NCBI GenBank assembly: GCA_015232165.1
Contig: JADGAE010000004.1
Coordinates: forward strand, 17,866-27,661
Origin: Nitrospirota bacterium
Lineage (GTDB): Bacteria; Nitrospirota; Thermodesulfovibrionia; Thermodesulfovibrionales; Magnetobacteriaceae
Reading direction: 5' to 3'
Length of the DNA stretch: 9,796 nt
Below, in pieces: positions 1,320 through 9,391 of this stretch. The notes beneath the pieces were generated by a model. That model saw nothing but the letters and a program-made list of their open reading frames with translations. It made no database searches and was not told where the DNA came from. The position numbers were made by a program, and so were the translations under genes. Within the stretch, counting starts at the first letter, position 1, and each line of letters opens with the position of its first letter.

Positions 1320-1402
1320 CCCCCCTGCAAGGGGGAGGTCAAGGAGGGCAGGTGCGACCTGGAGCGCCAAGAAGCGGAGCCGCCCTCCTTGTCTTTCTCT
1401 TC
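1320..1402 (-). repeat. Dispersed G/C-rich hairpin element, copy A (convergent spacer)
   Basis: This spacer between two convergent genes holds a G/C-rich structured element. Read on the minus strand it starts directly after the kinase stop codon: an AGAAAGA-type purine run, then GGCGGCTCCGCTTCTTGG. The 25-nt core at 1360-1384 matches copy B (3760-3784) with one mismatch, in inverted orientation. A 10-bp inverted repeat (CAAGGAGGGC at 1340-1349, GCCCTCCTTG at 1382-1391) encloses the core, and a small hairpin (CCCCC-TGCAA-GGGGG) lies at 1321-1335. Confidence 0.75.
1340..1400 (+). terminator. Terminator candidate for the coiled-coil gene
   Basis: On the plus strand the 10-bp inverted repeat 1340-1349/1382-1391 is followed by a pyrimidine-rich, T-rich tract (TCTTTCTCTTCTT from 1392). 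That resembles a factor-independent terminator, but the 32-nt loop is long. It is the same DNA as dispersed element copy A. Confidence 0.35.
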
Positions 1403-2695
1403 TTACGCTTTTTGCACCTTTGACAGGTCATCGCTTGTCCTTGACAGGCGCGTTATCAGGGTCTTCAGGAACATCTTGTTAAACCGTATCTGACACTGCA
1501 GCGACGTCCTGTCTATCATCGTCCCGCTGATCTTAAGCAACGTCACTTCGGTGGCGGAGATGATGCTTGCCGAGCGCTTGGCTTTGGTAATAAAGCCCAT
1601 CTCACCAAAACAATCACCCTCCCTAAGGTTTACAAGGGGTCGGTCACCCTTTTTGACCTGCACCTGTCCGGAGACTATTATGAAAAACGAGTCATCGATA
1701 TCGCCCTCGGTGATTATGGGTGCATTGACCGGGTACTCAACCCACGTGCTGGCACGCATGACCTCGGACAGCTCAGAGTTGAAAAACCCCTTAAAAAAAT
1801 CCAGCTTCTTGAGCATCTCATGCCGCACCTGTTCCTTGATTGCCCTGTCGGCGTGTTTAAGGCTCTTCATGGCGTTTACCAGGTCTGCGGCGAAGTCAAT
1901 GCCGCGCGGGTATCTCTCCTGCGGGTTTTTCTTAAGAGCCTTTTTCACTATCAGCTCCAGGACCTCGGGCATGTCCGGTTTGTAGACGTGCATGGGGGGC
2001 GGGTCCTCGTTGATTATCTTTAGTATCTGACTGGAGATGTTGTCGGCCTTTAGTGGGGGCATCCCCGTCAACAGCTCATACATTACCACCCCCAACGAAT
2101 ACAGGTCGGTCTGGTTGGTCAACTCCTCCTCCTTAATCTGCTCGGGGGACATGTACAACGGAGAACCCATCAGACCACCCACCTGCGTGACGTCGGTCTT
2201 GTTGATCTGGGCTATGCTGAAGTCACCGATCTTGACGTCGAGGTCTTCGGTCATCATGATGTTGCCAGGTTTGATGTCCCGGTGGATGATTCCAAGGTTA
2301 TGGGCATAATCAAGGGCCTTACAGCACTTGAATATTATCTCGATAACCTTCTCCCTGGGAAGCAGCTTGTCAGGTTTGCAGTAATCCTTGAGACTCATGG
2401 CACCACTAACAAACTCCATGACAAGATAACAGTGCTTTATCTCTATCCCGGCGTCATAGACGTGAACTATATTGGGGTGATCGAGTATGCCTGCACAGCG
2501 CGCCTCGTTAAAGAACATCCGTCTGTAGCGATTGGCGTTTTCGCTGTCGTGCATATTTTCGGCATTTGCAACCTTTATGGCCACCTCGCGGTTAATGTAA
2601 GGGTCTATGCCGCGGTATACGATGCCCATACCGCCACGGCCTATCTCCTCTTTGAGGTCATACTTGCCTATCCTGAAGATATGTTTCTTACCCAT
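1403..2695 (-). CDS. Ser/Thr protein kinase with C-terminal cyclic-nucleotide-binding-type domain
   Basis: A 430-residue eukaryotic-type (Hanks) kinase. Residues 10-275 form the kinase domain: glycine loop GRGGMG (19-24), VAIK lysine 41, helix-C Glu64, catalytic loop HRDIKPGN (138-145), SPE (183-185) in place of APE. The DFG triad reads D158-F159-S160, so the metal-binding Asp is kept but Gly is Ser. Residues 297-415 form a Crp/cAMP-receptor-like beta barrel with a phosphate-cassette-like stretch FGEMGF..KAKRSAS, where Glu365 and Arg374 are the expected ligand contacts. No membrane segment is visible, so it should be a soluble kinase that may be gated by a cyclic nucleotide or another small ligand. 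The ATG at 2695 has AGAGG just upstream. The gene stands alone, and its targets are not indicated by neighbours. The domain calls are firm; the ligand is inference. Confidence 0.93.
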   Translation of the reverse strand: MGKKHIFRIGKYDLKEEIGRGGMGIVYRGIDPYINREVAIKVANAENMHDSENANRYRRMFFNEARCAGILDHPNIVHVYDAGIEIKHCYLVMEFVSGAMSLKDYCKPDKLLPREKVIEIIFKCCKALDYAHNLGIIHRDIKPGNIMMTEDLDVKIGDFSIAQINKTDVTQVGGLMGSPLYMSPEQIKEEELTNQTDLYSLGVVMYELLTGMPPLKADNISSQILKIINEDPPPMHVYKPDMPEVLELIVKKALKKNPQERYPRGIDFAADLVNAMKSLKHADRAIKEQVRHEMLKKLDFFKGFFNSELSEVMRASTWVEYPVNAPIITEGDIDDSFFIIVSGQVQVKKGDRPLVNLREGDCFGEMGFITKAKRSASIISATEVTLLKISGTMIDRTSLQCQIRFNKMFLKTLITRLSRTSDDLSKVQKA

Positions 2696-2724
2696 AATTC
2701 CTCTGCTTTCATATACTATTGTTT

Positions 2725-2754
2725 AACATAGCAAAGTACCACATCTTTTGACAA
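2725..2754 (-). promoter_or_regulatory. Promoter candidate for the kinase gene
   Basis: On the minus strand, TTGTCA (2749-2754) and TATGTT (2725-2730) are separated by 18 bp, and TGC directly precedes the -10, giving an extended -10. It lies about 30 bp upstream of the ATG. The match is by eye only. Confidence 0.45.
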
Positions 2755-2759
2755 GCCCC

Positions 2760-3140
2760 GCGGCTCTTATTTCTGAAGATTACAATCCGTTCCGGTAGGC
2801 AAGGGGGGGAAAGGGACAGCAGTTGTATATATCATCCGCATGAAGGAGATATTGCGGCAAGATATGTACATAATATTAGGCGCATTTAAGGTAGGATTTT
2901 CATCTGCTGCCCCCTATACCTAAAAACTCTAAACTATAACACCTCCATTATTCATCCTTATAAAATTTACCTACTCCACTGTTGTATATAAATTGCCATT
3001 TCCAATGTCATATAATTATTGTAGCAAGTATGATTTTGGAAAACAAGATAAATCTTCTTCACATTACAATATCCGTATATGAAAAAGAAAAAAAAAAGAA
3101 AGGGACGGCTGCACATCATCTCCAAGGGGTGGCAATAATA
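2760..3140. other. Divergent A/T-rich spacer, no gene recognised
   Basis: Between the kinase promoter and the NuoB-like promoter I see no convincing coding region. The stretch is A/T-rich with many TATA-like strings. A purine run at 3081-3103 leads into AAAGGGACGGCTGC, a degenerate match to the start of the dispersed elements (AAAGGGGCGGCTCCGC at 3755-3770). An ORF of 27 codons at 2840-2923 has no supporting signal and is not called. A regulatory or small-RNA role cannot be excluded. Confidence 0.5.
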
Positions 3141-3150
3141 ACTCAAAGCT

Positions 3151-3159
3151 TGCTATAAT
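3151..3159 (+). promoter_or_regulatory. Extended -10 promoter candidate upstream of the NuoB-like gene
   Basis: TGCTATAAT is a perfect extended -10 (TGn plus TATAAT at 3154-3159). The -35 region near 3130-3136 is poor, as is common with extended -10 promoters. Transcription would begin near 3166, only a few bases before the ATG at 3169. Confidence 0.5.
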
Positions 3160-3168
3160 AAATCCAGC

Positions 3169-3237
3169 ATGAAACTAAACATATTGATAAAGATGTCGTC
3201 TAAGATGGACTTAAGATTATTGCGGCATAACGCATGA
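3169..3237 (+). CDS. Possible 22-residue leader ORF coupled to the NuoB-like gene
   Basis: The ORF runs from ATG at 3169 to TGA at 3235-3237 and encodes a basic peptide (MKLNILIKMSSKMDLRLLRH plus NA). Its stop overlaps the next start as ATGA (3234-3237), the classic arrangement for termination-reinitiation. The predicted transcript would start only about three bases before its ATG, so the ORF would be nearly leaderless, and no Shine-Dalgarno sequence is visible. The downstream gene also lacks a clear ribosome site, which makes coupling plausible. I recognise no family. Chance is a real alternative for an ORF this short. Confidence 0.35.
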   Translation: MKLNILIKMSSKMDLRLLRHNA

Positions 3238-3746
3238 TAAAGATACTTCATCAGATATTTCGGACGGGGATAGTTACGGAGCCGCTTAATCGGTTGCCGG
3301 ATGCGGCTATTGTCAAGGAGACAACCGACAGGTTAGACGAGGCTATTAAGAGACGTCTGCGACGAAGCCTTACAATCAGGCAGGTGGACGCCGGTTCCTG
3401 CAACGGCTGCGAGTTGGAGATACATGCCATTAACAATCCCATTTACAATTGCGAGCGGTTCGGGATTCACTTTACCGCCTCACCGAGGTTTGCCGACATG
3501 CTCCTGGTCACCGGGCCGGTGGCGACAAACATGGAAATCGCCCTAATCAGGACATACAACGCCACCCCCACGCCAAAGCTCGTGGTAGCGGTGGGTGATT
3601 GCGGTTGCAACGGCGGGATTTTCGGCGAAAGTTATGCCAGCCTGGGCGGGATCGACAAGGTCATCCCTGTGGACGTCTACATCCCCGGATGCCCGCCAAC
3701 CCCCGAAGTAATCCTAAACGCCATACTCCGGGCAATCGACGGGTAA
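3234..3746 (+). CDS. NuoB-like / group 4 hydrogenase small-subunit-type Fe-S protein
   Basis: A 170-residue protein of the NADH dehydrogenase 20-kDa (NuoB, EchC/MbhJ, HycG) family. It keeps the hydrogenase-type signature GSCNGCELEI, with Cys56 and Cys59 plus Cys123 and Cys153 as the expected four ligands of a single [4Fe-4S] cluster; Cys125 is extra. The N-terminus (IFRTGIVTEPL) resembles HycG/Ech-type subunits, and the length suits EchC/MbhJ rather than the longer E. coli HycG. In the family this subunit passes electrons between the catalytic large subunit and the other Fe-S subunits on the inner membrane face. The start is fixed by an in-frame stop two codons upstream (3228-3230). No clear Shine-Dalgarno is seen; ATGA overlap with the small ORF at 3169 may serve instead. 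No large subunit or membrane partner lies beside it, so it is an orphan here and its partner is unknown. Confidence 0.88.
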   Translation: MIKILHQIFRTGIVTEPLNRLPDAAIVKETTDRLDEAIKRRLRRSLTIRQVDAGSCNGCELEIHAINNPIYNCERFGIHFTASPRFADMLLVTGPVATNMEIALIRTYNATPTPKLVVAVGDCGCNGGIFGESYASLGGIDKVIPVDVYIPGCPPTPEVILNAILRAIDG

Positions 3747-3757
3747 AGAAACAGAAA

Positions 3758-3876
3758 GGGGCGGCTCCGCTTCTTGGTGCTCCAAGAGGGGGCAAGGGGA
3801 CTGGTCCCCTTGCGGGTGGGTCTGAGGGAGGGGTCGGCGACCCCCGGCTCAATTGGGCAAAGCCCTCCCTTCTTTA
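3758..3876 (+). repeat. Dispersed G/C-rich hairpin element, copy B (convergent spacer)
   Basis: The element begins 12 bp after the NuoB-like stop codon with the shared core GGCGGCTCCGCTTCTTGG (core 3760-3784, one mismatch to copy A inverted). It continues with a perfect 8-bp hairpin (CAAGGGGA-CTGG-TCCCCTTG, 3793-3812) and the string GCGGGTGGGTCTGAGGGAGG, which recurs inverted in copy C. A short hairpin (GGGGTC-GGC-GACCCC, 3830-3844) sits in a roughly 24-bp segment that copy C lacks. An A/T-richer stretch without features follows to the mtaB stop at 3945. Confidence 0.8.
3793..3876 (+). terminator. Terminator candidate for the NuoB-like gene
   Basis: An 8-bp hairpin at 3793-3812 is followed by the pair AGGGAGGG (3825-3832) / CCCTCCCT (3863-3870) and the tail TCTTTA. 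In copy C the same pair forms a tight hairpin. The tail is only moderately T-rich, so efficiency is uncertain. Confidence 0.4.
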
Positions 3877-3944
3877 CCCCAACCATTTAGGACTGGACTA
3901 TTGCTAAATATTTATGGCCCTGTACTTATAAAGGTTGGATTATT

Positions 3945-5216
3945 TCAGCCTCCATGTTCCAGTTCAACCACAGTTAACTCACCCCTTAGCGCGCCGTCTT
4001 TAATGCCGGTAATCCGAAGGCTTACAATCTCTCTCTCACAAACCATAACCTTGCCGGCATTGACCTCGAACCCGACCTTAAGGTAGTTGTCGGTGGTTGC
4101 CTGATATAGCGGTCCGTCTAATTTTTCAACTATAGCCGGCAATACACGCCCCACTTGCCTGGCCATAAAGGCAGCCTTCTTGCGCTCAGACAATTGCCGC
4201 AAGAGCAAGGCCCTGCGTTTCTTTGCCTCTTCACTGACCTGGCCGGGCAGATCAAAGGCCCGCGTCCCCCTCCGCCTTGAAAACGGAAACACGTGCAGAT
4301 ACGTCAGCGGCAGCCCGCTTAGAAAATCGTATGTCCTGCCAAAGCTCTCATCATCCTCACCGGGGTAGCCAACAATCACATCCGTGCCAATGGCAACGTT
4401 GTCAATGGCCCCGTGGATATCCAGAAGCAGTCCCCTAAAGTCGGCGGTGTCATATCCCCTGTTCATGTCCCCGAGTATCCGATCATCCCCGCTCTGAAGC
4501 GGGATATGAACATGTCTGCATAACCGCTCGCTCCCTAACAGTTCTAACAGTTTGTCGGTAAACTCGTTGACCTCAATAGATGTCAATCGCACCCTTATGC
4601 CCGTGGTGTTATTAAGTATTGCCTCAACCAGGTCGGAGAGTGTCGTCTGAGGTGCCAGGTCTATACCATAGAACCCTATATGTATCCCCGTCAACACCAC
4701 TTCGTTGTAGCCTGATAGCACAAGCCCACTGACCTCCCCGATAATATCAGTTACCGGCCTGCTGATTGACCTCCCCCTGCTCCTAGGGATGATACAGTAG
4801 GAACAACCGGCATTGCAGCCGTCCTGAATCTTTAAAAGCGCCCGACTCCTGGCGTTCTTATCGTGCGCGGGGACAACGGTCTTGTCCACCGCAAGACCGG
4901 TGTCTAAAAAATGCAGCAACTTGTCCTTGTTGCTGATAACGGAGATATCCTCGCTTATTGAACGCAGCTCCTCCCTGTTGAGTTCGGCGTAGCAGCCGGT
5001 TGCGAACACCTTTGAACCGGCCTTTATGGCACGCCTTATCAGTTGCCTGGATTGATAATCACTCTTGGCGGTAACGCTGCACGTGTTTATTATGCAGACG
5101 TCGGGCAGGTCGTTGAGTGTAACGGGGACGTGCGAGTTTCTGAGGAAGTGGTACTCGATGGTGGAGCTCTCTGCCTGGTTGGCCTTGCACCCCAGGGTGA
5201 GGATGCAAAACCTCAT
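3945..5216 (-). CDS. mtaB: tRNA t6A37 2-methylthiotransferase MtaB
   Basis: A 423-residue radical-SAM methylthiotransferase that converts t6A37 to ms2t6A37 in tRNAs reading ANN codons. The N-terminal MTTase domain has Cys10 (TLGCKANQAES), Cys46 (NTCSVT) and Cys75 (TGCYAE) for the auxiliary [4Fe-4S] cluster. The radical-SAM motif is Cys134-x3-Cys138-x2-Cys141 (QDGCNAGCSYCIIP). A C-terminal TRAM-like RNA-binding domain occupies about 360-423. The LGCKxNQ.E signature and NTC-SVTAK-D favour MtaB over MiaB or RimO, and the length is normal. The ATG at 5214-5216 overlaps the miaB stop as ATGA, so it should be cotranscribed and translationally coupled with miaB. It shares the convergent space at 3747-3944 with the NuoB-like gene. 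All catalytic residues appear intact. Confidence 0.95.
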   Translation of the reverse strand: MRFCILTLGCKANQAESSTIEYHFLRNSHVPVTLNDLPDVCIINTCSVTAKSDYQSRQLIRRAIKAGSKVFATGCYAELNREELRSISEDISVISNKDKLLHFLDTGLAVDKTVVPAHDKNARSRALLKIQDGCNAGCSYCIIPRSRGRSISRPVTDIIGEVSGLVLSGYNEVVLTGIHIGFYGIDLAPQTTLSDLVEAILNNTTGIRVRLTSIEVNEFTDKLLELLGSERLCRHVHIPLQSGDDRILGDMNRGYDTADFRGLLLDIHGAIDNVAIGTDVIVGYPGEDDESFGRTYDFLSGLPLTYLHVFPFSRRRGTRAFDLPGQVSEEAKKRRALLLRQLSERKKAAFMARQVGRVLPAIVEKLDGPLYQATTDNYLKVGFEVNAGKVMVCEREIVSLRITGIKDGALRGELTVVELEHGG

Positions 5217-6541
5217 CCACCTACAACCTCGCCCTCAAGTGTGTGCCTGTAGGCCTTCACTATACGGACGTTTAAAAACAGTGCGGGTTGCAGACCGTCC
5301 GTAGACGAAAAATTAACGATCTTATTGGTGCCGGTCCTCCCAATCCACGAGTTGGGGTCTGTCTCACTCCTACCGTCAACGAGGACCTCGGTTACACTGC
5401 CCTCAAGGGCCTTGTTTTTCCTCTGAGTGATGACGTCCTGACACCTCAGTATCTCCTGCAACCTCTCTGACTTAATGCCCTCATCCACCTGGTCGTCCAT
5501 CGATGCGGCCTTCGTGTTTGGTCTCACGGAATACTTAAAGGCAAATATGCCGTCAAACTCGATCTCGTTAAGGGCGTTTATCGTCTGCTTGTGGTCATCG
5601 TCGCGTTCTCCGGGAAAACCCGCTATAATGTCGGAGGTGACGGCGACATCGGGGACCCTCAATCGCAACCTCCTTACCTTGTCTATGTACGTCTCATAGT
5701 CGTATCGCCTGTTCATCAGAGCCAGCACCCGCGAGGAACCCGACTGCATGGGCAAATGAACGTGTCGGCAGACGCTGCCAAGCTCCGCCATCGACAGTAT
5801 AAGTTCGTCCGTGAAGTCCTTGGGGTGAGACGTTATGAAGCGGACTCGCCTGATGCCCTCCACCTTGTCGATCAGTCTGAGCAACCCGGCAAATGAACAT
5901 CCGCCGTTGTAGGAGTTTACGTTTTGTCCAATCAGGGTCACTTCCTTGTATCCGTTGTCGGCAAGGGAGGTTATTTCGTTGATGATGTTTTCGTATGGCC
6001 TTGACCTCTCTCTGCCCCTGGTGTAGGGGACGACACAGTAGCTACAAAAGTTGTTACACCCATACATTATGCTGACCAGCGCCCTGATGCCGTTTTCTCT
6101 CTCTGCCGGCAGATCGGTTATTGCGATGGCGTCGTTGTCCTCAACGGCTGCCCGGAACAACTCCGAACTCAATAGATCGGCCAGCTTCATGATATTCTGT
6201 GGGCCAAACGAAAAGTCCACGGCCTTGTTTAGCTCGTGTATGTGGCTGCCCTCATGTTGGGCAATACAGCCTGCGACGCCTATCCTCATAAAAGGACGCC
6301 TCTTCTTAAGACGAGCCAGATAGCCCAGGTAGCTGTAAAACTTGTGCCGTGCCTTCTCCCTGATGCTGCACGTGTTGAGAATTATCAGATCTGCGCTCTC
6401 CGGGTCATCCGTCAGGGCATATCCCTGAACTTTCAGGATGCCTGCTATCTTTTCAGTGTCGTGCGAGTTCATCTGGCAACCCCACGTGTGCAGATGTGCG
6501 AGCCTTTTCTCTTGCATCTTAATTATAGATATTTTTACCAC
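5213..6541 (-). CDS. miaB: tRNA i6A37 2-methylthiotransferase MiaB
   Basis: A 442-residue radical-SAM methylthiotransferase converting i6A37 to ms2i6A37 in tRNAs reading UNN codons, which helps frame maintenance. Auxiliary-cluster cysteines are Cys22 (TWGCQMNSHDTE), Cys58 (NTCSIREKA) and Cys92 (AGCIAQ). The radical-SAM motif is Cys162-x3-Cys166-x2-Cys169 (MYGCNNFCSYCVVPYTRGRE). TSHPKDF and the HLPMQSGSSRVL stretch are typical of MiaB, and a TRAM domain covers about 375-440. The GTG at 6541 has AGGAGTT eight bases upstream, so I prefer it. The ATG at 6517 would drop eight residues, has a weaker site, and would still keep all motifs. It is the first gene of a miaB-mtaB pair, divergent from the sia operon across a 135-bp spacer. 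Confidence 0.96.
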   Translation of the reverse strand: MVKISIIKMQEKRLAHLHTWGCQMNSHDTEKIAGILKVQGYALTDDPESADLIILNTCSIREKARHKFYSYLGYLARLKKRRPFMRIGVAGCIAQHEGSHIHELNKAVDFSFGPQNIMKLADLLSSELFRAAVEDNDAIAITDLPAERENGIRALVSIMYGCNNFCSYCVVPYTRGRERSRPYENIINEITSLADNGYKEVTLIGQNVNSYNGGCSFAGLLRLIDKVEGIRRVRFITSHPKDFTDELILSMAELGSVCRHVHLPMQSGSSRVLALMNRRYDYETYIDKVRRLRLRVPDVAVTSDIIAGFPGERDDDHKQTINALNEIEFDGIFAFKYSVRPNTKAASMDDQVDEGIKSERLQEILRCQDVITQRKNKALEGSVTEVLVDGRSETDPNSWIGRTGTNKIVNFSSTDGLQPALFLNVRIVKAYRHTLEGEVVGG

Positions 6542-6595
6542 AATCGAGTAACTCCTGTCAACGTAAATTCGAGGGCACCCCTGTGGATGGTTTAA

Positions 6596-6623
6596 TTGAC
6601 ATATTCAATAAACCTGTGATAAA
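6596..6623 (+). promoter_or_regulatory. Promoter candidate for the siaBCD operon
   Basis: A consensus -35 TTGACA (6596-6601) and, 16 bp later, GATAAA (6618-6623) preceded by TGT form an extended -10 promoter. The predicted start near 6630 leaves a leader of about 45 bases before the GTG at 6677. No operator palindrome is obvious. Confidence 0.55.
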
Positions 6624-6664
6624 CTTCACCAGATTAGCGCCACGGGACTTAGACTGTAATATGC

Positions 6665-6671
6665 AAGGAGG
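6665..6671 (+). promoter_or_regulatory. Strong ribosome binding site fixing the siaB GTG start
   Basis: AAGGAGG lies five bases before GTG at 6677. The upstream ATG at 6661 is out of frame, so the GTG is the start. Confidence 0.85.
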
Positions 6672-6676
6672 ATATC

Positions 6677-7222
6677 GTGTTAACGGATCTCTATGAACTT
6701 TACAAGCAGATGTTGAACGAAAAGATAATCTTTTGTTTTAGCGGTCCCGTATCGCAGCACGTTGTTGAGGGTATAGGGGCGACCTTGAAGCTCAAGATGG
6801 AGATTGATGACAATGACATAAATACCATACAGAGGGTTTTTTCCATATTCGTGGAACAAATGCAAAACCTCATGAATTACTCCGCAGAGCGGGTTTCTCA
6901 GGAACGGGAAGGCGGGGACCTGGGCATTGGGCTCTTTGTTGTTGGGTTTAAAGACGGTCATTTCTACGTCCGTTGCGGCAACAAGATAAAAAACGATAAG
7001 TTGAGCGTGATCAGGGCTCAGGTTGACGAGCTGCGAACCCTCAACGCAGACGAGCTAAAGACCCTCTATCGCCGGCGCCGCAAAGAGCCTAGCCCCGAGG
7101 GTAGCAAAGGGGGAGGGCTTGGTTTTATAGAGATGGCCAGAAAGGCCAGTCAACCAATTGAGATAGACTACACCACGGTGGATGAGACAATCTCGTTCTT
7201 GTCCGTTACCGTGTATATATAG
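6677..7222 (+). CDS. siaB: SiaB-family protein kinase (GHKL-like), SiaC regulator
   Basis: A 181-residue protein resembling SiaB/DUF6272 proteins, which phosphorylate the partner SiaC and so stop it from activating the diguanylate cyclase SiaD. A GHKL-type ATPase fold is suggested by the helix FSIFVEQMQNLMNYSAER (N-box position, about 57-74), GIGLFVVGF (about 86-94), and the glycine-rich GGGLGFIEMARKA near 130-142 that resembles the family's G-box. No histidine phospho-acceptor domain or sensor domain is fused to it, as usual for SiaB. It opens the operon: siaC follows after 14 bp and siaD overlaps siaC. The context supports the family call more strongly than any single motif does. The loop RRRRKEPSPEGSK before the G-box is unusually basic. 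No signal peptide is present, so it should be cytoplasmic. Confidence 0.85.
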   Translation: MLTDLYELYKQMLNEKIIFCFSGPVSQHVVEGIGATLKLKMEIDDNDINTIQRVFSIFVEQMQNLMNYSAERVSQEREGGDLGIGLFVVGFKDGHFYVRCGNKIKNDKLSVIRAQVDELRTLNADELKTLYRRRRKEPSPEGSKGGGLGFIEMARKASQPIEIDYTTVDETISFLSVTVYI

Positions 7223-7236
7223 CAAAGGAGCCGATT

Positions 7237-7635
7237 ATGGACATATTATGCATACAGGCAACTAAATCCACTCCTTATGTGTGTTTTGACCCAACCTCCG
7301 GTACGTTTACCATCAAGGGTGAGTGTTATCCTGAAAACGCCGCGGCATTTTTTACACCCATCTTTGCGTGGCTGGATGCCTTCCTGCCTTTAGGGCAACC
7401 CAAGACCCTGGTCTTTGACATAGAGCTGCTCTATTTCAACAGCAGCAGTTCAAAGGCATTGTTGAATCTCTTTAGTCTGCTTGAGCGTCACCTTGGGTGC
7501 AGTGATATCAACGTCAACTGGAGATACCATGCCGATAATGAAACGGCCTTGGAGTGCGGGGAAGAGTTTAAGGAAGACGCCCCTAATCTTGCCTTTAACC
7601 TTGTAGAGCTCGAGCAAACAGGCAGTAATGGATGA
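7237..7635 (+). CDS. siaC: SiaC-family regulatory phosphoprotein (DUF1987)
   Basis: A 132-residue protein with the DUF1987/SiaC pattern: STPYVCFDPTSGTFTIKGEC, then PENAAAFFTPIFAWLDAFL (about 11-50), then LVFDIELLYFNSSSSKALLNL (about 58-78). In P. aeruginosa, unphosphorylated SiaC binds and activates SiaD, and SiaB phosphorylates a Thr (Thr68) in the equivalent segment. Here the segment is YFNSSSSK, so a Ser among 69-72 is the likely phospho-acceptor (inference). The fold is thought to resemble anti-sigma-factor antagonists. AAAGGAG at 7224-7230, six bases before the ATG, is a strong ribosome site. The last eight bases overlap siaD, implying coupled, roughly matched production of activator and cyclase. 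The C-terminal stretch (LVELEQTGSNG) is not conserved as far as I can tell. Confidence 0.9.
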   Translation: MDILCIQATKSTPYVCFDPTSGTFTIKGECYPENAAAFFTPIFAWLDAFLPLGQPKTLVFDIELLYFNSSSSKALLNLFSLLERHLGCSDINVNWRYHADNETALECGEEFKEDAPNLAFNLVELEQTGSNG

Positions 7636-8413
7636 TGACTATCAACTATCCACATTTATTATGAGTCTTTTTGAAGAGGAAGAGTCCATGATACGCGAGG
7701 CTGAGGATATCCTCAACTCGGAGATGACGTGTGGCAATGCCCTACTGCCTCACTTCGATAAACTCTCCGGCGCTTACAAGAAGCTGCTAAGGCAGACAAA
7801 GCGCATCGTAAGGATGGCAGACAATCTACAGCGAGACCTTAACGTTGCCACAGACAAGCTCTCTATCCTGTGCACGGTCGATCAGCTCACCAACGTTGCC
7901 AACCGACGCTGCCTTGAGGAGACATACAATACCGAGTGGAAACGCTCCCTGAGAAACGGTACTCCATTGACCTTGATTATCATGGACATAGACTTCTTCA
8001 AGCAGTACAACGACTCCTATGGACATACCAAAGGGGATATCTGTCTGCAGAGGGTTGCACAGACGATAAAACAGACCCTCAAGCGACCACAGGACCTGTT
8101 GGCCCGTTATGGCGGTGAGGAGTTCGTTGTGGTCCTCCCCGAGACAAATGAGGCCGGCGCGTTAAGTGTCGCGGAGGGTATCAGGGTTGCCATAGAGGCT
8201 CAGTCCATACCGCATCGCATGTCAAAGGTATCGAGTTATGTTACCATCAGTATTGGTGTTTGTGTTATGACGGCCAACCTGGTTGACAACAAGGATGTTC
8301 ACCTCTTCAGGGCAGACCAGGCCCTGTACAAGGCCAAGGAAAGCGGCAGAAACAGGGTCGTGATGTGGGAGGAAGTTGAGGAGTTGCCTGAGAGGCCATC
8401 GACGGATGCTTAA
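7628..8413 (+). CDS. siaD: SiaD-type diguanylate cyclase (GGDEF)
   Basis: A 261-residue enzyme making c-di-GMP from two GTP. Residues 1-80 are helical with a coiled-coil-like stalk (about 45-80, LSGAYKKLLRQTKRIVRMAD) that probably dimerises and contacts SiaC. The GGDEF domain follows: DQLTNVANRR (85-94), metal Asp120 in MDIDFFKQYND, and the active-site loop GGEEF (162-166). The product-inhibition I-site is intact as R153-x-x-D156 with the standard spacing before RYGGEEF. KAKESGRNRV near the end is the usual terminal motif. The ATG at 7628 lies within siaC with no clear Shine-Dalgarno, so translation probably depends on siaC. Family members are active only with bound unphosphorylated SiaC. No membrane or periplasmic sensor is fused, in line with SiaD. 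Catalytic residues suggest an active enzyme. Confidence 0.93.
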   Translation: MDDDYQLSTFIMSLFEEEESMIREAEDILNSEMTCGNALLPHFDKLSGAYKKLLRQTKRIVRMADNLQRDLNVATDKLSILCTVDQLTNVANRRCLEETYNTEWKRSLRNGTPLTLIIMDIDFFKQYNDSYGHTKGDICLQRVAQTIKQTLKRPQDLLARYGGEEFVVVLPETNEAGALSVAEGIRVAIEAQSIPHRMSKVSSYVTISIGVCVMTANLVDNKDVHLFRADQALYKAKESGRNRVVMWEEVEELPERPSTDA

Positions 8414-8530
8414 TGTATTACATTTAAGGGGAAACTGTATCTTCGTTCAAGCCGGGGACATGTTTCATGGCAATGACAGGAAATGGCATTTTGCACCCAT
8501 ATGTGCCTACCCTTGGCTCGAACATGGGTC

Positions 8531-8550
8531 ATTCCTGCGCAAGCAGGAAT
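8531..8550. repeat. Palindromic intergenic repeat (ATTCCTGC / GCAGGAAT)
   Basis: A perfect 8-bp inverted repeat around a 4-base loop, flanked by GGTC and CCAGAAAGC. It belongs to the widely scattered ATTCC-N-GGAAT type of bacterial repeat (dRS3/REP-like), whose reading in one frame gives the well-known spurious peptide SFLRKQESR. It lies between siaD and the TPR gene and may mark or help end the sia transcript, though no T-run follows. Confidence 0.75.
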
Positions 8551-8606
8551 CCAGAAAGCATAGAAACATAGCTACCATAGAAATATTAAGAGACTACGGG
8601 AGACTT

Positions 8607-9053
8607 ATGTATTTGAGAGTTGTTTGCACGCTGGTTTTCTTGATAATCAGCCTGTCTGGATATACATGGGAGGGAAAGACACATGGTGGTGTTGTCTATG
8701 CCGAGGATGCGCTTACATTCTACAACAGAGGCCTTGAGTGGCATAAAAAAGGAGACTACGATATGGCTATTGCCGATTTCACTAAAGCCATTGAGATAAC
8801 CCCCCGGTATGCAGAGGCATATACCGGTCGTGGTACAGCCTGGAGAAAAAAGAAAGACCTTGACAGGGCTATAGCCGATTACAACAAGTCCGTTGAGATA
8901 AACCCCCGATATTCCCTGGCGTACTATGGTCTTTGGCTGTCCTGGGGTAAAAAGGGAGAGCCGGATAAAGCCATAGCGGCCCTGAAGAAAGGGGCACAAC
9001 TTGGAGATACCTACGCACAAGACATATTACGAACGAAGGGCATTACATGGTAA
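8607..9053 (+). CDS. Exported tetratricopeptide-repeat protein
   Basis: A 148-residue protein with an N-terminal hydrophobic signal (VVCTLVFLIISLSG, about 5-18) and a possible signal peptidase I site after VVYA (residue 32). Three consecutive TPR units follow: about 35-68 (FYNRGLEWHKKGDYDMAIAD), 69-102 (AYTGRGTAWRKKKDLDRAIA) and 103-136 (a weaker third unit). TPRs mediate protein contacts, so a periplasmic adaptor is likely; the partner is unknown. I chose the ATG at 8607 because GGGAG lies four bases upstream and a signal peptide begins there. An in-frame ATG at 8376 would overlap siaD and read through the palindromic repeat at 8531-8550, producing non-homologous sequence. The gene follows siaD by 193 bp, so membership in the sia operon is uncertain. 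The lack of a Cys lipobox argues against a lipoprotein. Confidence 0.85.
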   Translation: MYLRVVCTLVFLIISLSGYTWEGKTHGGVVYAEDALTFYNRGLEWHKKGDYDMAIADFTKAIEITPRYAEAYTGRGTAWRKKKDLDRAIADYNKSVEINPRYSLAYYGLWLSWGKKGEPDKAIAALKKGAQLGDTYAQDILRTKGITW

Positions 9054-9116
9054 TCCGGATAATCAGAGCAGAGTGCAGCAAGTGAGCACGTTGCAGATTC
9101 TCAGACTCACCCACAA

Positions 9117-9149
9117 GGGCAGGGACACATCTGTCATAAGTGCCTGCCC
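9117..9149 (+). terminator. Stem-loop downstream of the TPR gene
   Basis: GGGCAGG (9117-9123) pairs with CCTGCCC (9143-9149), with a smaller inner stem (GACA 9124-9127, TGTC 9132-9135). An A/T-rich tract (ATAATTAATTATATT) follows rather than a pure T-run. It could end the TPR transcript or be a processing hairpin. Confidence 0.35.
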
Positions 9150-9195
9150 ATAATTAATTATATTGCCTGTTGAGTTAACTCCGGTCAAGAAAAAA

Positions 9196-9237
9196 AAAGG
9201 GGCGGTAACGTCGCTGTGCGAGCGGAGTCGCCCCTTT
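9196..9237 (+). terminator. Terminator-like hairpin downstream of the TPR gene (part of copy C)
   Basis: AAAGGGGCG (9196-9204) pairs with CGCCCCTTT (9229-9237), with an inner stem (CGCT 9212-9215, AGCG 9221-9224). It is preceded by an A-run and followed by CTTTCTTG-like T-rich sequence, so it could act in both directions. Its right arm region (GCGGAGTCGCCCC, 9222-9234) is the inverted GGGGCGACTCCGC version of the start of copy B. Confidence 0.5.
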
Positions 9238-9293
9238 CTTTCTTGTATACGGGCAATTTTGATACCCGAAAAAACTCGAATACGATCAGTATA

Positions 9294-9363
9294 CGAAGGA
9301 AGGGAAAGAAGGGAGGGCTTTGCCCTCCCTCAGACCCACCCGCAAGGGGACCAGCCCCCCTTG
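9294..9363 (-). repeat. Dispersed G/C-rich hairpin element, copy C (convergent spacer)
   Basis: Read on the minus strand this repeats the second half of copy B: an imperfect CAAGGGG..CTGGTCCCCTTG hairpin, GCGGGTGGGTCTGAGGGAGG, then GCAAAGCCCTCCCTTCTTT. It lacks the roughly 24-bp insert of copy B at 3833-3856. It starts about 28 bp after the ATPase stop codon. A separate module like the start of copy B lies further on at 9196-9240, so module order differs from copy B. Confidence 0.8.
9296..9330 (-). terminator. Terminator candidate for the P-type ATPase gene
   Basis: AGGGAGGGC (9310-9318) pairs with GCCCTCCCT (9322-9330) around a 3-base loop. On the minus strand the 9-bp stem is followed by TCTTTCCCTTCC. 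The stem is strong and the tail moderately U-rich. Confidence 0.5.
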
Positions 9364-9391
9364 ACGCACCAATCATAATTCTTGCTATCAA

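Follow-up and report, generated by a model that had tools for sequence, protein, structure and literature searches.

The window analysed here, a 9,796-nucleotide stretch from a Magnetobacteriaceae bacterium of the Nitrospirota (genome G000, contig C115, positions 17866-27661), holds three convergent intergenic spaces, in which a sequence-only reading had noticed three copies, A, B and C, of a modular G/C-rich hairpin element. We found that these copies are members of a family of non-autonomous repeats spread over the genome, whose GC-rich hairpin cores lie between several different pairs of ends, and we consider it fairly probable that these repeats are moved in trans by IS630-type transposases and exchange their parts by recombination. 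The three window repeats are thus likely mobile DNA tolerated after stop codons rather than purpose-built terminators, and of the two options left by the sequence-only reading, a non-autonomous repeat tolerated at these places fits the evidence. This evidence comprises high copy number, near-restriction to one genus, an abrupt change in flanking sequence, hairpins nested within others, stems that covary, no fewer than seven recurrent arm pairs and, for one of these pairs, a match to both ends of an IS630-family element.

G000 is a draft genome of 1.92 Mb, 57% complete, from the genus that holds Candidatus Magnetobacterium casense, and was compared with three further genomes of this genus (G001, G002 and G003). 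Cores were counted with the exact pattern GGGGTCAAGGGG hairpin CCCCTTG, using the reversed pattern as a control. Among 19 genomes of the family, the count was 170 in G000, 82 in G001, 215 in G002 and 218 in G003, with three copies in G015, one in G006 and none in the other 13, while the reversed pattern returned no match. Copy B used as a query matched 10 of 30 genomes, including its own, and none of the 12 genomes drawn from the order's other families. A set of 14 module patterns detected 81 elements in 266 kb of G000 against one in a block-shuffled copy, and 50 elements in 400 kb of G001 against six after shuffling. The core family is nearly restricted to one genus. A search of the window against Rfam gave no match reaching the gathering score, and in the open-licence literature no paper linking Magnetobacterium with MITE or palindromic was found, most of the broader listings not naming the genus.

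Similar double hairpins, GGGGTCAAGGGG...CCCCTTGCGGG..., were observed in Synergistaceae and goat-rumen Clostridia (L197, L235 and L266) with a pattern fixing 21 bases. Among the 80 loci listed for this pattern, 13 lay outside the genus, in other phyla; the 21 fixed bases are common to them by construction, and in the three loci named the likeness reaches into the second hairpin. These look-alikes may have arisen by convergence.

The unit consists, in order, of GGGGTC, a first hairpin AAGGGG-loop-CCCCTT, a linker, a second hairpin with a GCCCC or CCCTCC end and a pyrimidine tract; we define GGGGTCAAGG as its head and the pyrimidine tract as its tail. The stems covary. In 229 first stems from all sampled loci, one column was occupied by G-C in 184 cases, C-G in 39 and other combinations in six, while the adjoining column showed A-T in 187, G-C in 26, T-A in two and others in 14, seven of which were G-T; as the copies are related, these counts represent cells and not events. 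With the 21-base pattern, the free column paired in 186 of 203 copies. Moreover, the loops carry further hairpins of the form GGGG(TCAGCGA, CGAGCCG or TCGGCGA)CCCC with a tail of 9-11 nt, located after a G run.

The arms on either side of the core were compared starting from 78 exact heads from the first G000 sample and its extension, 44 of which had a tail by the rule used. Nine left and nine right multi-copy clusters were obtained, together with 13 left and 8 right singletons. In 36 copies both arms were clustered, and their pairing went beyond all 2000 shuffles. Seven left clusters recurred with their own right arm (L0-R3, L1-R5/R6, L2-R0, L3-R1, L5-R8, L6-R2 and L7-R7), the core sitting between at least seven recurrent arm pairs; nine of the 36 copies were mixed combinations occurring once each, the pattern expected from exchange between families. 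Beyond the head, identity between clusters was down to background within 6 nt, and beyond the tail within 1 nt. Since the core was anchored on an exact 12-mer, its inner sharpness is built in, whereas the drop in likeness outside it is not.

The arms of one family end in TIR1, TATAGCGCGTTTCGATTG, which, allowing up to two mismatches, occurred 114 times in G000, 38 times each in G001 and G003, 9 times in G002 and 29 times in G008, compared with three matches of the reversed control in 19 genomes. All 11 facing TIR1 pairs less than 320 bp apart in the G000 sample contained the core, in units of 142-216 bp. At locus L331 of G003, the end TATAGCACGTTTCGATTGGGTTAAATACAATATCCACAG adjoins an IS630-family transposase of which the C-terminal part is present (NF033545 positions 222-296 of 299, E 7.7e-22; PF13358 above cut-off), and a core at 1831-1888 stands where one would expect the earlier part of the transposase gene. 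The L331 end matched the arms of core-bearing copies such as L121 over 37 bp at 86%, and over 123-131 bp its identity to four contig ends of G015 was 99-100%. The second arm matched TATAGCACGTTTCGATTGCATGCAATACAGAAAGA in L111 and L300, and in L111, also from G003, a TIR1 end of an insertion sequence (IS) lies at the contig end, next to a fragment of a Y1 transposase that carries an inner stop. Both TIR1-type ends would come from one IS, the two not having been seen on one contig. As judged from sequence, the TIR1 arm family displays the testable features expected of an IS630-derived miniature inverted-repeat transposable element (MITE), namely inverted ends matching IS630, short length, non-coding content and multiple copies. 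A TIR1 pair lying 1.6 kb apart on contig C153 of G000 was considered as an intact IS and rejected, as it encloses secG- and tpiA-like frames (named by eye).

Arms were also found without the core. In G008, which belongs to a related genus and has no cores, 24 loci yielded 11 two-ended TIR1-like elements, of which 10 carried another hairpin, with the words GGGCGAAC and GGGGCAGACC, and none carried the core. At L308, L309, L318 and L324 of this genome, a GTAGGGGCAGACCTATGTGTCTGCCC hairpin resembling GTAG-tagged repetitive extragenic palindromic (REP) sequences was observed where the core would be. Likewise, near position 5603 of L075 in G000, MITE arms of the L3/R1 type enclose a different hairpin, ATTCCCGCT...CAGGAATCC, and not the GC core. 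As the G008 elements and L075 carry other hairpins, arms and cargo are separable.

On this basis, an IS630-type transposase would move the arm-bounded elements in trans, and the cores would move from one arm family to another, either through recombination or by transposing themselves. If so, hairpin cargo and transposon ends would be separately inherited, exchangeable modules in this genus, which would provide a natural test case for the spread of palindromic repeats that have no transposase themselves. The repeats also likely break the assemblies of uncultured magnetotactic bacteria, since at least 10 G000 contigs have a TIR1 end no more than about 110 bp from their start.

A number of results weigh against movement by IS630-type transposases. 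The 54 TIR1 matches in the G000 sample gave only 11 close pairs, most copies being without two intact ends, and no TIR1 was found in the window, so copies A, B and C are not bounded by it. The NF033545 match at L331 is a fragment whose 78 bits fall short of the cut-off of 100. An intact IS630 with TIR1 was not encountered, G000 gave no PF13358 match, and of the four PF13358 matches in the genus only that at L331 had TIR1, the other three having none. The TIR1 elements read TATAGC...GCTATA at their ends, and owing to this TATA a TA target duplication is indistinguishable from the element. A general inverted-repeat test around the cores gave a weak excess or none: at score 10, 19 of 80 cases in G000 compared with 11% for shuffled partners, and at score 12, 5 of 80 compared with 6%; the other three genus genomes showed no clear excess, and inverted ends of arm families other than TIR1 were judged by eye only. 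Finally, no clean empty site for the core was found in 354 copies, nor was movement seen. The search returned 506 left-flank matches without a core directly after, 18 of which rejoined a right-side word; on inspection by eye, 17 of these proved to be N runs, shifted matches or further cores, and the last (L075:5603) had the same arm family with the different hairpin described above.

The core might instead be mobile on its own account, as a palindrome-associated transposable element (PATE)-like sequence related to IS200/IS605 ends, with MITEs and spacers as its targets, insertion taking place 3' of ATNAH and the arms being no more than its landing sites. It would then be a parasite of parasites, a double hairpin jumping by itself into unrelated IS-derived MITEs and against stop codons, and growing by means of hairpins of about 24 bases inserted into its own loops. 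We regard both the self-mobility and this wider picture as possible but unlikely. Hairpins are present near both core ends, and the core has no inverted ends of its own, a feature shared with PATEs. In 78 distinct left contexts, position -2 was A in 96%, position -4 was T in 69% and position -5 was A in 69%, the heads reading ATNAH then GGGGTC, while no conservation was observed to the right of the tail, and G002 has 215 cores against 9 TIR1 matches. However, the conserved left bases may be part of the element, the search for empty sites also counts against this reading, and none of the four genus genomes contains an intact Y1 transposase. As for IS605-type relatives of the palindromes, only the interrupted Y1 fragment of G003 was detected, with no core beside it, tnpB not having been searched.

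The same lack of an intact Y1_Tnp in the four genus genomes, with the single G003 fragment, led to the rejection of REP-associated Y1 transposase (RAYT) as the mover, 5 of 14 control genomes being positive. REP/REPIN elements moved by RAYT are therefore a very unlikely explanation, and the core bears no GTAG or CGTC tag, even though the repeats resemble REPs, as far as these are described in the sections consulted (PMC3733652), in being short, palindromic, intergenic, numerous, enriched in convergent spacers and sometimes the source of a stop codon. Retroposition of terminator RNAs copied by a reverse transcriptase is barely credible. The variable pyrimidine tail and the mixing of modules could reflect template switching, but RVT_1 matched only in G001 (two) and G002 (three) and not in G000 or in G003, which is 88% complete and has 218 cores; reverse transcriptase was thus rejected as the motor, with no match in two of the four genus genomes.

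The placement of the elements relative to genes was then evaluated on 380 elements from 1.62 Mb of stretches of the four genus genomes, with genes called by a home-made hexamer model. The spacer counts omit 32 of the 380 elements that lie inside called genes and 51 not flanked by two called genes, and the densities are inflated because the stretches were mostly taken from hit-carrying contigs, the whole-genome counts being those of the core and TIR1 patterns. Among spacers of at least 80 bp, 47 of the 83 convergent ones contained an element, as did 152 of the 431 tandem and 50 of the 122 divergent ones (Fisher P 0.0003 for convergent against tandem and 0.03 for convergent against divergent), corresponding to 2.4, 1.2 and 1.0 elements per kb respectively. 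The ranking differs by genome, divergent spacers being lowest in G001 and exceeding tandem ones per spacer in G002 and G003. The absence of full modules from divergent spacers therefore holds for the window and does not extend to the sampled stretches. The three host spacers are indeed convergent, but the observation that the element is always sense to one flanking gene is uninformative, since between two convergent genes any element that has a strand is necessarily sense to one of them and the statement cannot fail; the placement rule is mostly a coincidence of three copies.

Strand and end distances were assessed on the 259 elements with clear polarity. Tandem spacers showed no strand bias (77 sense and 81 antisense). 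Ends lay within 60 bp of a gene in 98 of 258 stop-facing cases against 26 of 260 start-facing cases (Fisher P 3e-14), and the tail tract stopped no more than 6 nt from the codon in 34 of 113 cases for stops against 6 of 110 for starts; the tail-to-stop distance can shift by 2-3 nt because the complement of a stop codon is itself pyrimidine-rich. Half of the outcome that the sequence-only reading had set as refuting its terminator option was thus observed in the sampled stretches: strand was random in tandem spacers and 50 of 122 divergent spacers carried copies, but closeness to stops was non-random. Under the IS630-type reading, the position after stop codons would mainly reflect the loss of copies from promoter regions, which would account for the stop-facing excess at 60 bp. 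Promoter avoidance alone does not account for tails within 6 nt of stops, a further point against that reading, and targeting may contribute.

These data also bear on the other option of the sequence-only reading, a copied 3'-end element whose hairpin and T-run act as an intrinsic terminator, kept or spread because genes need it past their stops. The closeness to stop codons is in its favour, as is the T-rich run, since in 111 of 171 copies a 10-nt window with at least seven T was found no further than 30 nt from the tail, compared with 54 of 171 on the head side. Furthermore, in four of four mtaB orthologues an element lies at or just past the 3' end with its head away from mtaB, though the gene that follows is not the same. 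The G001 copy is reduced to a head fragment, which provides the mtaB stop codon, so that the repeats are able to take over the stop codon of a gene beside them. Orthologues paired as reciprocal best hits, with downstream spacers of 80 bp or more in both members, had a downstream element in common more often than expected: it was found in both members of 14 pairs, in one of 19 and in neither of 25 (P 0.017). The 14 pairs, which include mtaB of G000 and G003, had the same orientation in six cases and different orientations in six, two being unscored; both old insertions followed by exchange and repeated insertion at one place fit this sharing. On the other hand, the random strand in tandem spacers indicates that the elements are not oriented to end the upstream gene, the 50 occupied divergent spacers do not suit such a role, and tails abutting stops point into the gene and not away from it. 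A terminator spreading next to stops is accordingly improbable, the non-random position near stops being the part that stands; transcription termination in the tail direction is a predicted side effect of the repeats under the IS630-type reading.

The window copies have no intact ends and were assigned only as members of the core family. The modules common to them are real: A 1360-1385 and B 3759-3784 share 26 nt at 96% identity on opposite strands, while B has two stretches in common with C, one of 37 nt at 97% (3796-3832 and 9323-9359) and one of 24 nt at 96% (3855-3878 and 9302-9325). Comparison by blast with the other sampled loci delimited repeated stretches at 1331-1398, 3753-3877, 9137-9201, 9206-9293 and 9299-9365. 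The degenerate start that had been proposed at 3095-3108 came down to a common A/G-rich run, with one blast match at 3080-3101.

Copy A (1331-1402, plus strand) is a core fragment without head or arms, made of a second hairpin of the GGAGGTCAAGGAGGG type, and its best match elsewhere is L032 (64 nt at 95%); its pyrimidine tail at 1386-1402 adjoins the kinase stop codon (1403-1405, minus strand). Copy B is a compound with a tail-like tract at either end. Its first part (3747-3784, minus strand) comprises an A/G-rich run past the NuoB-like stop and then GGGGCGGCTCCGCTTCTTGG, the module common with A, the tail facing the NuoB-like gene. The main core (3788-3877, plus strand) has the first hairpin CAAGGGGACTGGTCCCCTTG, the linker GGGTGGGTCTGAGGGAGGG and a last hairpin with a CCCTCCC end, its tail TTCTTTACC faces mtaB, and it matched L003 at 90% over 91 nt and L002 at 97% over 71 nt. 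A nested hairpin (3829-3857, plus strand), GGGGTCGGCGACCCC with the tail GGCTCAATT, lies inside the loop of the last hairpin and is missing from copies reading GGGAGGGCAAAGCCCTCC. Copy C comprises an R8-type arm fragment (9137-9201, minus strand), CTTGACCGGAGTTAACTCAACAGGCAATATAA as read on that strand; a hairpin module (9202-9242, plus strand), GGTAACGTCGCTGTGCGAGCGG, with an A run ahead and a T-rich tail behind (z -5.3); an R7-type arm fragment (9243-9293, plus strand), GTATACGGGCAATTTTGATACCCGAAAAAACTCGAATACGATCAGTATA; and a second core in inverse direction (9299-9365, minus strand), GTCAAGGGGGGCTGGTCCCCTTGCGGGTGGGTCTGAGGGAGGGCAAAGCCCTCCCTTCTTT, which is 97% identical over 60 nt to L287. 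Both arm fragments belong to families other than TIR1. With the polarity of the family applied, it is the tail of A that meets the kinase stop and the head of the ATPase-side copy in C that faces the ATPase stop.

Correia/NEMIS elements of Neisseria start with TATAG, and their inner part is not known to be a GC-rich hairpin mosaic, unlike that of the elements described here. According to the portions of the literature consulted, the nearest kinds are RUP, BOX, SPRITE, PATE/SMR and REP elements (PMC3733652, PMC2229807, PMC3049150, PMC3119063, PMC4853749, PMC10969869), and the family appears to work like an IS630-type MITE system with modular inner parts. RUP of Streptococcus pneumoniae, a MITE proposed to be moved by IS630-Spn1, is likewise short, non-coding, intergenic and present in more than 100 copies, with IS630-like ends and TA at the ends (PMC2229807); it is one uniform element without a GC-rich mosaic core common to several end families. 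Correia/NEMIS elements are similar in having terminal inverted repeats and TA at the ends, and also have a target duplication (PMC2229807). BOX elements are modular, the boxB modules of S. suis lying between two different end-module pairs (PMC3049150), but BOX modules form tandem arrays, whereas in the present family hairpins sit inside the loops of others and at least seven arm pairs enclose the same core. The SPRITE element of S. pneumoniae is similarly a dispersed, terminator-like stem with a T-rich tract (PMC3049150); it has a single stem and about 30 copies in the S. pneumoniae genome, with no core common to several MITE families. The PATEs and SMR-A of Haloquadratum walsbyi have near-terminal palindromes without inverted ends, and small elements enter the palindromes of others (PMC3119063); their palindromes match IS605 ends, whereas here there is no such match and no intact Y1 transposase. 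GTAG/CGTC REPs and bacterial interspersed mosaic elements (BIMEs) are palindromic and intergenic, lie mostly in convergent or unidirectional spacers and may give stop codons (PMC3733652), the present elements differing in being multi-hairpin and longer, without tag or intact RAYT.

Another dispersed repeat is located at 8445-8591 of the window, in the tandem spacer between GGDEF and tetratricopeptide repeat (TPR) frames; it matched L079 over 108 bp at 91%, and its part at 8528-8551 had up to 54 matches in the sampled loci. The stretch 6677-8413 holds successive DUF6272, SiaC-like (97.5 bits, cut-off 150) and GGDEF frames, a row that we take to resemble the siaBCD set. The protein kinase at 1403-2695 has a cyclic-nucleotide-binding domain at its C-terminus, and the coiled-coil-like frame at 1-1283 contains internal direct repeats of 104 nt (96%) and 96 nt (91%).

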